Source: Kandleria vitulina DSM 20405
Lineage (GTDB): Bacteria > Bacillota_I > Bacilli_A > Erysipelotrichales > Coprobacillaceae
Length of the DNA: 49,297 bases
Assembly: GCF_000702065.1 (NCBI RefSeq)
Contig: NZ_JNKN01000015.1
Span: 1 to 49,297, forward strand
Direction: 5' to 3'
Part shown: positions 4,718 to 18,432 of the stretch, piece by piece
Layout: each line of letters opens with the position of its first letter
How positions within the stretch are numbered: position 1 is the stretch's first letter
Translations under genes and position numbers: made by a program
Notes under the pieces: model-generated
Seen by the model: the letters and a program-made list of their open reading frames with translations, nothing else
Databases searched by the model: none
Told to the model about the DNA's origin: nothing

Positions 4718-4755
4718 AAATGTACTCTTTTAAAAGAGTGCATTTTTTCTTTTTT
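4717..4755 (+). terminator. Terminator after hcp
   Basis: AAATGTACTCTTT pairs imperfectly with AAAGAGTGCATTT, followed by TTTTTTC and more T residues. Confidence 0.8.
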
Positions 4756-4822
4756 GACCCACCGTGCGAAAACGCTTTAAAAAGGTAGAGTGGTAGAATA
4801 AGTAAGCAAGAAGGATTGAAAA

Positions 4823-4993
4823 ATGAAAAACATGAACAAATCAATTGAAAACAGCGAAGTGGTAAGCATTCTTAAAACACAAACACTTATGAAATTTGAG
4901 AAGGAACATTTTGATCTTATGTGTGGGCATGATGAATACGAACCGTACTGGAGCTTAGAGACAGAAAAAAGCAAGATACATATTGGAAAATGA
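4823..4993 (+). CDS. Hypothetical short protein, possibly a truncated gene
   Basis: A 56-residue reading frame preceded by AAGAAGGATTG. It is acidic/basic mixed, with the phrase FDLMCGHDEYEPYWSLE and no membrane segment. I do not recognise a family. The DNA after it (4994-5225) has no intact frame on either strand but contains frame pieces without starts or with early stops, so this may be the N-terminal part of a gene that has decayed. It lies next to an insertion-sequence remnant, in line with a deletion-prone spot. Confidence 0.35.
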   Translation: MKNMNKSIENSEVVSILKTQTLMKFEKEHFDLMCGHDEYEPYWSLETEKSKIHIGK

Positions 4994-5225
4994 TCAATCG
5001 ATGAACTTCTATGCAAGACATTGCCATTTCACGACAAGATCGAGTTGTGTATCATTCAGCTAATAAAAGTCATGAGTTTGATAACTACGAAAACATTTGA
5101 AGATGATTGGCATGGACAGTGAGAGTGCTAAGGCAGAAACAAGTGTTCCCTCACATTCGCTTTGGCAATTTGACATTCTTGATGGCAGTAGAGCTAAACA
5201 GTGGTCAAATTTCGAATTCTTTTTC
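4994..5225. other. Non-coding stretch, probably decayed gene sequence
   Basis: No intact gene, tRNA or terminator is seen. On the plus strand short open pieces follow one another in different frames, including one beginning near 5103 (MIGMDSESAKAE...) of about 50 codons with no ribosome binding site. This looks like a gene broken by frameshifts, but I cannot assign a family. Confidence 0.4.
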
Positions 5226-5399
5226 GGCTATTTCAGTAACAGTAAGACCTTTTGAGCTATACATTCACGTTCAATTAGTGTAAGATGTTTATGGTGGCTC
5301 ATAGAATAATCCTCCTTTATGATTTGTATTCCCAAGCACATTATAAAACGGATTTTCTATGAGTTACTTTTTTTGTTGCACTTAGATTATAAATTCAAG
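5226..5399 (-). mobile_element. Truncated left end of an IS30-family element
   Basis: Reading the minus strand from 5399, the first 97 or so bases match the IS30 remnant at 17921-18018 base for base, including the terminal repeat CTTGAATTTATAATCTAAG, the AAAGGAGG ribosome binding site and the transposase start. The encoded start is MSHHKHLTLIERECI; a roughly 12-base stretch present here (CACCATAAACAT) is missing in the other copy, while here about 10-15 bases after the ECI codons are missing, which breaks the frame. Similarity stops after GAAATAGCC at 5226. The right end is absent. Confidence 0.8.
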
Positions 5400-5403
5400 C
5401 CAT

Positions 5404-5429
5404 AAAAAAGTTCCTGGAATTCCAGGAAC
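5404..5429 (-). terminator. Terminator after the flippase gene
   Basis: Perfect 20-base palindrome GTTCCTGGAATTCCAGGAAC at 5410-5429, followed on the minus strand by TTTTTT. It starts on the last base of the stop codon. A run of T on the plus side means it may work in both directions. Confidence 0.88.
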
Positions 5430-7060
5430 TATTTTTTATAGAATCGATTTGCGATTTTATCCATATAAGGAATATTGTAGATTGTATCGGGATGATCTTT
5501 ATAAAGATAAAGAATCACTACAAAATAAACAATTATGGCAAGTCCAATTGCTACTACCAATGGAATAAGTACACGATGTGTAAACATAAATAGCACAGTA
5601 TAGCTTCCATATGCGACTACGCCCATGATGACTGCAGCAATAAGCGGTAAGATGAAGATGCGTTTCCACTTATACTTGAAATGCACAAGCTTAACAAGTG
5701 CACGCTGGTTGGTAATGCACATCTGCAATGCATAAAGTGCAGAACCGATAGCTAGCGAATATAATGAGAATTCATGTAAGTTTGCGCTAGGAATCAATAA
5801 AAGCAATGCAGCAAGAATAATTAAATGTGTTACTAAGGCAACGGCAGCATTCTTCAATGGAATGTTAGGATGGCTGATAGCCTGAAGAATACCATTGGAA
5901 ATAGTTGATAGCCCATAGAAGATTGTAGCACATGATCCAATTGTCAGTGTTGTAGCTGCAAGTGAAAGTGTGGCCTTCTGAGGGAAGAGCACACCCATGA
6001 TTGGATAAGATAATACGGCAAGTCCTACTGCACATGGAATAATGACAAGCATGGCAACAGAGATGCTGTTTTCAATATTGGCACGTACATCTTTCAAATT
6101 ATCTAAGGCGTAACTTGAAGAGATGGCAGGAATGGATGCTGTTGACATTGCGGATGCAAGGGCAACAGGGACATTCATAAGGACAGTGTATTTACCAGCA
6201 TAGACCCCATATAGAGAAGTAGCGGCGTCATGTCCTAAGCCTCTGAAGTTCATGATCATGTAGTAAAGTGACATATCGATAATTGTAACAAGGTTATAGA
6301 CACAAGTTGCAATAATGATTGGTGTCACAATTGTCAAAATTGACTTGAAAATTTCTTTTGTAGTTGCGATTCTCTCGTTTTCATTGACATTCTTTGATTC
6401 TTCAAAATCACCGTGATCATTGAAATACTTGTAGACAAGATAAATCAAGGCAATAAGAACGCCGGCTCCAGTACCAAGGGCACTTCCGGCAGAGCCAAGG
6501 CTTGCTTTTGCGACATGTGAGCTGTTGGCTCCTAATCCTTTAATAAAGAGGTAGGCTGCACCAACAGAAACAATGGCGTTAAGAAGCTGTTCAACAATCT
6601 GTGAGATTGAAGTGTACTTTGTTGTATTATGTGCCTGGAAGTATCCTCTCATGACACCGACTAATCCGGAGAAGAAGATAGTTGGACAAAGTACCTGCAA
6701 TGTCATTGCAGCGCCTTTTGCGCTAAGGGCGAAAGGTGCAGCGATGAATGTGATGGTTGCGACCACAGAACCAATGATTGAAATATAGATCAATGCACAT
6801 TTAAAGATCTTGCGTGCATTGCCATATTCTTCAAGAGCAATCTTTTCGCTGATCAGCTTAGAGATTGCGGTCGGAATACTGTAAGAAGAAAGCAGAAGAA
6901 TCATGGCATAGACATTATAGGCTGTGGAATAGTAGCCATTTCCTAAATCGCCAATCATACGTGTCAGTGGGCTTCGATAAAGAACCCCGATAATACGGAC
7001 AACGATACCTGCTAAAGCCAGGATTCCGGCTTGTTTAACGACAGTCTTTGATTTATTCAT
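5429..7060 (-). CDS. MOP-superfamily flippase (SpoVB/MurJ-like polysaccharide exporter)
   Basis: Integral membrane protein of 543 residues with about 14 hydrophobic segments. The N-terminus (KQAGILALAGIVVRIIGVLYRSPLTRMIGDLGNGYYSTAYNVY) is typical of the SpoVB/YtgP branch of the MOP flippases. Such proteins move lipid-linked precursors, such as lipid II, across the membrane; in several Firmicutes the YtgP/MurJ group is the essential lipid II flippase. It is transcribed away from pyrF, alone, and ends in a strong terminator. It could also serve the teichoic acid or capsule pathway encoded next door; the substrate cannot be decided from sequence. The start at 7060 is preceded by AGGAGTG on the minus strand. 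Confidence 0.85.
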   Translation of the reverse strand: MNKSKTVVKQAGILALAGIVVRIIGVLYRSPLTRMIGDLGNGYYSTAYNVYAMILLLSSYSIPTAISKLISEKIALEEYGNARKIFKCALIYISIIGSVVATITFIAAPFALSAKGAAMTLQVLCPTIFFSGLVGVMRGYFQAHNTTKYTSISQIVEQLLNAIVSVGAAYLFIKGLGANSSHVAKASLGSAGSALGTGAGVLIALIYLVYKYFNDHGDFEESKNVNENERIATTKEIFKSILTIVTPIIIATCVYNLVTIIDMSLYYMIMNFRGLGHDAATSLYGVYAGKYTVLMNVPVALASAMSTASIPAISSSYALDNLKDVRANIENSISVAMLVIIPCAVGLAVLSYPIMGVLFPQKATLSLAATTLTIGSCATIFYGLSTISNGILQAISHPNIPLKNAAVALVTHLIILAALLLLIPSANLHEFSLYSLAIGSALYALQMCITNQRALVKLVHFKYKWKRIFILPLIAAVIMGVVAYGSYTVLFMFTHRVLIPLVVAIGLAIIVYFVVILYLYKDHPDTIYNIPYMDKIANRFYKK

Positions 7061-17892: not shown

Positions 17893-17917
17893 AAACATCC
17901 GAAAGGATGTTTTTTTA
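17893..17917 (+). terminator. Terminator after the CPBP protease gene
   Basis: AACATCC / GGATGTT stem with a GAAA tetraloop, followed by seven T residues. Confidence 0.88.
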
Positions 17918-17920
17918 TAA

Positions 17921-18314
17921 CTTGAATTTATAATCTAAGTGCAACAAAAAAAGTAACTCATAGAAAATCCGTTTTATAATGTGCTTGGGAATACAAATCA
18001 TAAAGGAGGATTATTCTATGAGTCTTACACTAATTGAACGTGAATGTATAATGTATTATTGCTCAAAAGGTCTTACTGTTACTGAAATAGCCAATATTTT
18101 AAATAGAGATAAATCTACCGTATCACGTGAATTACATAGAAACAGTATCAGTGAAGAATATCTTCCAAAGGGAAAAGAGATGGATTCTGTCACTGATGAA
18201 TATATCAATGATTTCATAGACAAACTAAACAAACGACCTCGTAAATGTTTAGGATGGAAAACACCTTATGAAGTACATTATAATAAAGTGTTGCATTTAA
18301 CTTGAAAATTCAAG
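17921..18314 (+). mobile_element. Miniature IS30-family element with an internal deletion
   Basis: 394-bp element bounded by imperfect terminal inverted repeats: left CTTGAATTTATAATCTAAG and, read from the right, CTTGAATTTTCAAGTTAAA, both followed by TGCAACA. It holds a shortened transposase gene with its own AAAGGAGG. It lies between the protease terminator and the tRNA-Asp terminator. The left 97 or so bases are identical to the truncated copy at 5226-5399, so both came from the same element recently. Confidence 0.85.
18018..18305 (+). pseudogene. Internally deleted IS30 transposase
   Basis: A 95-codon open frame. Residues 1-45 are the N-terminal helix-turn-helix of IS30 transposases (LTVTEIANILNRDKSTVSRE). 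Residues from about 62 are the C-terminal tail (NKRPRKCLGWKTPYEVHY..VLHL). The whole DDE catalytic core is missing, joined in frame. A full-length IS30 transposase is about 300-350 residues. The product could still bind DNA but cannot catalyse transposition. AAAGGAGG lies eight bases before the ATG, so translation is plausible. Confidence 0.85.
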
Positions 18315-18318
18315 AAAT

Positions 18319-18341
18319 AAAAAAACCTCTCAATTGAGAGG
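18319..18341 (-). terminator. Terminator of the tRNA-Asp transcript
   Basis: On the minus strand CCTCTCAATTGAGAGG followed by TTTTTTT, starting 13 bases after the tRNA 3' end. Confidence 0.85.
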
Positions 18342-18354
18342 CTAGCTATCAAAA

Positions 18355-18432
18355 TGGCGGTCTGGACGGGGCTCGAACCCGCGACCTCCGCCGTGACAGG
18401 GCGGCATTCTAAACCAACTGAACTACCAGACC
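18355..18432 (-). tRNA. tRNA-Asp (anticodon GTC)
   Basis: The minus strand folds into a full cloverleaf: acceptor GGTCTGG / CCAGACC, anticodon stem GCCGCC..GGCGG with loop CTGTCAC (anticodon GTC, Asp), T arm GCGGGTTCGAGCCCCGT and an encoded 3' GCCA. It has its own promoter and terminator and stands alone rather than in a tRNA cluster. Confidence 0.95.

Follow-up and report, generated by a model that had tools for sequence, protein, structure and literature searches.

A recent, most likely inert deletion derivative of the IS30 family in Kandleria vitulina with a helix-turn-helix fused in frame to the transposase tail

Elements of the IS30 family have target duplications 2–3 bp long. In PMC9333248, IS30 hot spots are described as nearly palindromic, the junction of the two IS30 ends as carrying a promoter (Pjunc), and minicircles of IS30 that lack an intact transposase gene as able to integrate given transposase in trans. 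Truncated products are treated in PMC3299598: a 17-kDa N-terminal derivative of the IS30 transposase covers part of the promoter region, which it likely represses, OrfA of IS2 is a repressor and OrfA of IS911 does not repress. These descriptions make both mobility in trans and repression conceivable for a miniature element. Among titles and abstract beginnings of the open-access literature, we found no description of an IS30 MITE and none of terminator targeting by IS30 elements.

Here we describe a miniature element from Kandleria vitulina DSM 20405, carried on contig NZ_JNKN01000015.1, all 49,297 nucleotides of which were analyzed and are referred to below as the window (Table 1). Its limits are exact in the sequence: it begins with CTTGAATTT and terminates with AATTCAAG, and its imperfect, IS30-type inverted repeats of 26 bp agree with each other at 21/26 positions. 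Terminal inverted repeats matching those of family members and transposase homology are both present, while a complete DDE transposase is absent; the region from the helix-turn-helix (HTH) to the C-terminal tail is deleted, which makes the element a derivative rather than an autonomous IS30. Compared with IS30-family insertion sequences whose ends are near CTTGAATTTACAATCTAAGTGCAAC, it has like ends, an HTH_38 domain, the C-terminal tail, a possible 2-bp duplication and a predicted joined-end promoter. Unlike them, it has neither the catalytic core nor the segment with the second predicted HTH, and its 394 bp compare with 1096 bp in the intact IS30 that the genome also carries. The left-end pattern (at most 2 mismatches) is present in 10/315 genomes of the order.

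Within the element, an open reading frame of 95 aa starts 8 nt behind the ribosome binding site; the ORF listing had started this frame at an upstream ATG, and position 18018 is used here. Residues 3–42 match HTH_38 above the Pfam cut-off (E 5.4e-13) and residues 42–76 match positions 233–267 of 267 in NF033563 (transpos_IS30) with E 3.7e-6, a match of 26.9 bits that lies below the full-length cut-off of 80. Everything from just past the first HTH up to the start of the tail has been lost. A further 12 bp (four codons) just past the start codon are missing relative to both sibling copies (described below) and to the intact IS30.

To the right of the element lies a tRNA-Asp gene (18355–18432, minus strand), whose intrinsic terminator faces the element, and on the left the upstream gene, a putative protease gene according to the first-pass annotation, is followed by a terminator-like hairpin that was absent from a terminator scan using other criteria. 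Neither hairpin is broken by the element. The A/T-rich site has AA on either side, a possible 2-bp target duplication that may also be chance, since no 2-bp duplication can be clearly made out at the flanks of the intact IS30. Without the element, the site in the window reads TTTTTTTATAAATAAAAAAA, a near-palindrome, in line with the hot spots described in PMC9333248. The first-pass annotation of this DNA had proposed a 394-bp miniature IS30 with both inverted repeats, a wholly deleted catalytic core, an HTH joined in frame to the C-terminal tail behind an intact ribosome binding site, and insertion between the terminators of the upstream gene and of tRNA-Asp. All of these structural claims are borne out.

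Table 1. Positions in the window of the miniature element, its parts and neighboring features.
Feature	Position	Strand	Basis or remark
Fragment c3, 5' part of the same IS with a 10-bp frameshift (contig C13, in this window)	5226..5399	-	DNA match
Terminator-like hairpin and seven-T tract of the upstream gene	17897..17916	+	sequence; T-tract stops 4 nt before the element
IS30-family deletion derivative, 394 bp	17921..18314	+	sequence comparison
Left inverted repeat (IRL)	17921..17946	+	TATAAT at 17929–17934, a -10-like box once the ends are joined in a circle
Ribosome binding site AAGGAGG	18003..18009	+	sequence
95-aa ORF, in-frame fusion of HTH_38 with the C-terminal tail of the IS30 transposase	18018..18305	+	profile matches
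GAATATCTTCCA (EYLP), stretch at the deletion junction	18156..18167	+	the closest relatives have EYFP at the aligned C-side positions
Right inverted repeat (IRR)	18289..18314	+	TTGAAA at 18302–18307, a -35-like box once the ends are joined; includes the ORF stop codon
tRNA-Asp intrinsic terminator, to the right of the element and directed towards it	18324..18343	-	terminator scan

In the genome itself (2.13 Mb in 75 contigs, completeness 99.93), the DNA query matched four places, namely the miniature element, two fragments named c2 and c3, and an intact IS30 element named C4 after its contig. Fragment c2 (C12:14972-15219) is a frameshifted 5' fragment of the same IS as the miniature element, and c3, of like origin, adjoins a terminator-like hairpin downstream of a minus-strand gene (5429–7060). 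The region beyond c3 (4718–5225) lacks any ORF longer than 79 aa as well as the right end of the element, and is perhaps the remnant of another mobile element. Separately, a left-end-like sequence with 3 mismatches (locus L133, C7:40175-40199) lies directly past what by eye appears to be a terminator; it may be a solo end left long ago by a member of the same IS30 group. With the family profile, nothing was detected in this genome other than C4 and the tail of the miniature element, and the right-end pattern (at most 3 mismatches) was found only in the miniature element, in C4 and, read backwards with 3 mismatches, in the left end of C4. Neither the DNA query nor the right-end pattern thus gave a second copy of the miniature element. 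C4 is 1096 bp long and has a frame that, counted from its ATG, stays open for 329 aa; its protein matches HTH_38 at residues 3–46 and, below the respective cut-offs, HTH_32 weakly over 38–118 and the rve core at 178–246. In the two parts that it shares with the miniature element, amino acid identity is 52–57%, and by sequence C4 is an IS different from that of the miniature element, an intact parent of which was not found in the searches made.

The sibling copies are nearly identical. Miniature element and c2 have 235 matches and 1 substitution over 236 aligned bases, miniature element and c3 have 162 matches and no substitution, and c2 and c3 differ by 1 substitution in 167 aligned bases; each pair also differs by two or three gaps. 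Judged by these 0–1 substitutions per pair, the miniature element is young. With so few substitutions, point mutations would hardly have had time to disrupt a frame that is not needed, and the open frame is therefore no evidence of selection. Both c2 and c3 lack 10 bp, at different places, with frames shifted in each. The deletions in the miniature element (17921–18314), c3 (5226–5399) and locus L002 are three different ones of 10–12 bp, all in approximately the first 65 bp of the ORF, and such an excess of small deletions among sibling copies is unusual.

How the core was lost can be approached from c2, which shows the N side of the parent: after the HTH it reads GAAGAATATCTTCCA and then TACATAGCC. 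The miniature element consists of the c2 bases through TTCCA and continues with AAGGGA into the tail. On the C side, EYFP precedes the tail in six relatives (C4, G019, L014, L015, L017 and L086), whose EYFP-encoding DNA equals the 12-nt stretch of c2 at 8 or 9 positions, a figure that comes from relatives chosen by a motif-based pattern and is not unbiased. Among the 47 distinct matches from all loci collected, unfiltered, the C-side residues aligned to EYLP were EYFP in 9, EFFP in 7 and EFYP in 6, and they ended in P in 46/47. Of the 26 distinct matches reaching the motif on the N side, a few of which represent the tail and not N-side sequence, none had EYLP; GYRP, EYIP and KYLP were among the forms seen. 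The comparison suggests that slippage between EYLP, just past the HTH, and an in-phase EYFP or similar stretch ahead of the tail probably removed the core. The two stretches would have been alike and in phase in the parent, as far as its C-side bases can be deduced; the repeat at the junction is one that we infer, since the C-side motif varies, with EYFP in only 9/47. Given stretches that are in phase, slippage would by itself yield a fusion in frame, without selection. Both deletions in the miniature element keep the frame, as opposed to the 10-bp frameshifts in both siblings, and this weakly suggests that the ORF was maintained; the chance that a 12-bp deletion keeps the frame is about 1/3.

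We aimed to find further copies of the element and further fusions of this kind. In 59 other genomes there was no copy of the miniature element, and the remaining matches there cover at most 80 bases. Matches were obtained for 3 phage and 614 plasmid records in the phage and plasmid collections, none of which had one place covering 80% of the query. In viral contigs, a 46-nt upstream pattern had no match, one of two end patterns matched a single locus (L129, where a left end is followed by the beginning of a transposase frame) and the other matched none. Protein searches covered 394 genomes of the class (67 matched) and 392 of the phylum (89 matched), overlapping samples that both include the K. 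vitulina genome, and no second HTH/tail fusion was present among the matches listed. Likewise, across 128 loci, 61 of them from a scan of named genomes, alignments of the matches spanning both halves showed no joining of HTH to tail apart from the element in the window; the spanning matches at G441:C43 (inside a 411-aa frame) and G317 were left out of this alignment reading. Several candidate fusions were rejected upon alignment. The sequence behind the HTH is not tail in L122 (the same place as L007, L075, L092 and L126), L081, L102 (which shares genome and region with L128) and L108, the sequence ahead of the tail is not HTH in L106 and L120, and the weak spanning match at G322:C7 (L121) consists only of weak, chance-like matches.

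If the two ends of the miniature element are abutted, as in a circle, they read TTGAAA and TATAAT with a 17-nt spacer, equal to the consensus at 11/12 positions, a score reached by shuffled ends in 2/2000 trials. Among six loci of full-length relatives, the joined ends scored 12 in G019 (L122), 11 in C4 and L014, 10 in L015 and L016 (15-nt spacer) and 9 in L017; C4 ends taken the wrong way round scored 7. Abutted ends would thus form a promoter predicted to read into the ORF of the miniature element.

Several readings of these observations were weighed. We consider it probable that the element is a recent, non-autonomous IS30-family deletion derivative that lost its core, probably by slippage between EYLP- and EYFP-like stretches, and that is most likely inert. 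An active MITE, for which the intact C4 would supply transposase in trans, is unlikely. Movement in trans, as the first-pass annotation had suggested, is possible as far as the ends go: IRL is identical to that of C4 at 25/26 and IRR at 23/26 positions, C4 has an open transposase frame, integration of IS30 circles without an intact transposase gene is on record when transposase is given in trans (PMC9333248), and the flanking AA could be a target duplication. Similarly to MITEs and non-autonomous IS derivatives, the element keeps both ends, has its transposase destroyed and shares its ends with a relative in the genome. Unlike them, it occurs as a single copy with both ends, not as dispersed multiple copies, and still carries an open reading frame; the two transposases are only 52–57% identical in their shared parts, and a plain deletion in situ accounts for the same facts. 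The idea of a MITE family did not hold up: there is one copy, and the searches made gave no parent belonging to the same IS. The annotation had also named a single copy without a full-length relative as a finding that would speak against it; the copy is indeed single, whereas a full-length relative does exist, of a different IS.

For the 95-aa peptide, the annotation had further suggested binding to element ends and repression of full copies. This reading, like that of a transposition inhibitor, is unsupported and in our judgment very unlikely. The HTH_38 domain and the ribosome binding site are kept, and in a structure model predicted from the single sequence three N-terminal helices are formed, with block pLDDT values of 68–82 over residues 1–40. 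As with the 17-kDa IS30 derivative and IS2 OrfA, which are end-binding N-terminal pieces, the predicted peptide has an N-terminal HTH without a catalytic domain; it differs in its much shorter N-terminal part and its C-terminal tail. Its DNA-binding region is incomplete: only approximately 45 aa of the region spanned by the 17-kDa derivative are kept, with four residues absent at the start of HTH_38 and the segment of the second HTH (the weak, below-cut-off HTH_32 of the intact IS30) gone. Confidence is low in the modeled tail, and the overall mean pLDDT is 63. In the integrated form, a promoter scan of the sequence ahead of the ORF gave no sigma-70-like candidate above its threshold (a TATAAT at 17975–17980 has, by eye, only a weak -35), and the ORF stands behind the terminator-like hairpin at the left border. 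Its open frame is explicable without selection, and the only intact IS30 of the genome is divergent. An assembly artefact is more improbable still: the genome is a draft of 75 contigs, but the element lies inside a 49-kb contig with ordinary genes on either side, and its junction has a biological explanation. We give the least credence, close to none, to a self-limiting form, in which the two in-phase stretches make the HTH-tail fusion the default outcome of deletion and ends circularized by a transposase in trans switch on the fusion peptide, which then competes for the ends.

The position of the element between terminators led to a comparison of flanks among related elements. The flank set comprised ends with at most 5 mismatches to CTTGAATTTACAATCTAAGTGCAAC in the loci collected (37 flanks, L018 being dropped because its end is at a contig edge), from which five flanks belonging to elements of gammaproteobacteria were excluded once the flank list had been seen. 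The T-tract criterion, likewise chosen after seeing the flanks, was a run of five T within 14 nt. It was satisfied by 16/32 flanks (24 loci), and 9/32 had a terminator-like hairpin with T-tract; the corresponding control values were 3.0% and 0.7% at random positions in the same loci and 5.9% and 2.4% at intergenic positions of the window. With three later loci, T-tracts adjoined 18/35 flanks (binomial p ~1e-13 vs 5.9%), a count that treats the two, non-independent flanks of an element separately and includes L133, whose end is weak. None of the five gammaproteobacterial flanks had a T-tract, and including them gives 18/40; restricting ends to at most 3 mismatches gives 18/32. Counted per locus, a T-tract is found on at least one side in 16/27. 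Overall, members of this IS30 subgroup are found inserted beside T-tracts and terminators (18/35 flanks vs 3–6% in controls). Such a preference would explain the location of the miniature element. Examples adjoining T-tracts or terminators can be seen at 17897–18343 and 5226–5420 of the window and at loci L015, L016, L087, L089, L090 and L129.

Returning to the deletion derivative that we prefer, its history can be sketched as follows. To judge from the flanks, a parent IS would have inserted at an AT-rich, near-palindromic site between two convergent terminators. The catalytic core would then have been lost, probably through slippage between the in-phase EYLP and EYFP-like stretches, and 12 bp near the start codon would have gone as well; the two losses themselves are evident from comparison with siblings and relatives, while the slippage and the order of events are our proposal. 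Since its ends are intact, the element could still be circularized and moved by a related transposase, and the joined ends would then form a promoter that may drive its ORF. In its present form the element is most likely either inert or the origin of small amounts of a peptide that serves no function.

The miniature element is a routine deletion derivative and serves as a worked example that a seemingly designed in-frame fusion can stem from how a deletion arises. Were the self-limiting form true, it would represent a built-in non-autonomous type among some IS30 elements with EYLP-like and EYFP-like stretches. The enrichment of T-tracts and terminators at the flanks is a more useful by-product of this analysis than the element itself. 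Insertion beside T-tracts and terminators is a target choice that would spare genes, and it is directly testable.
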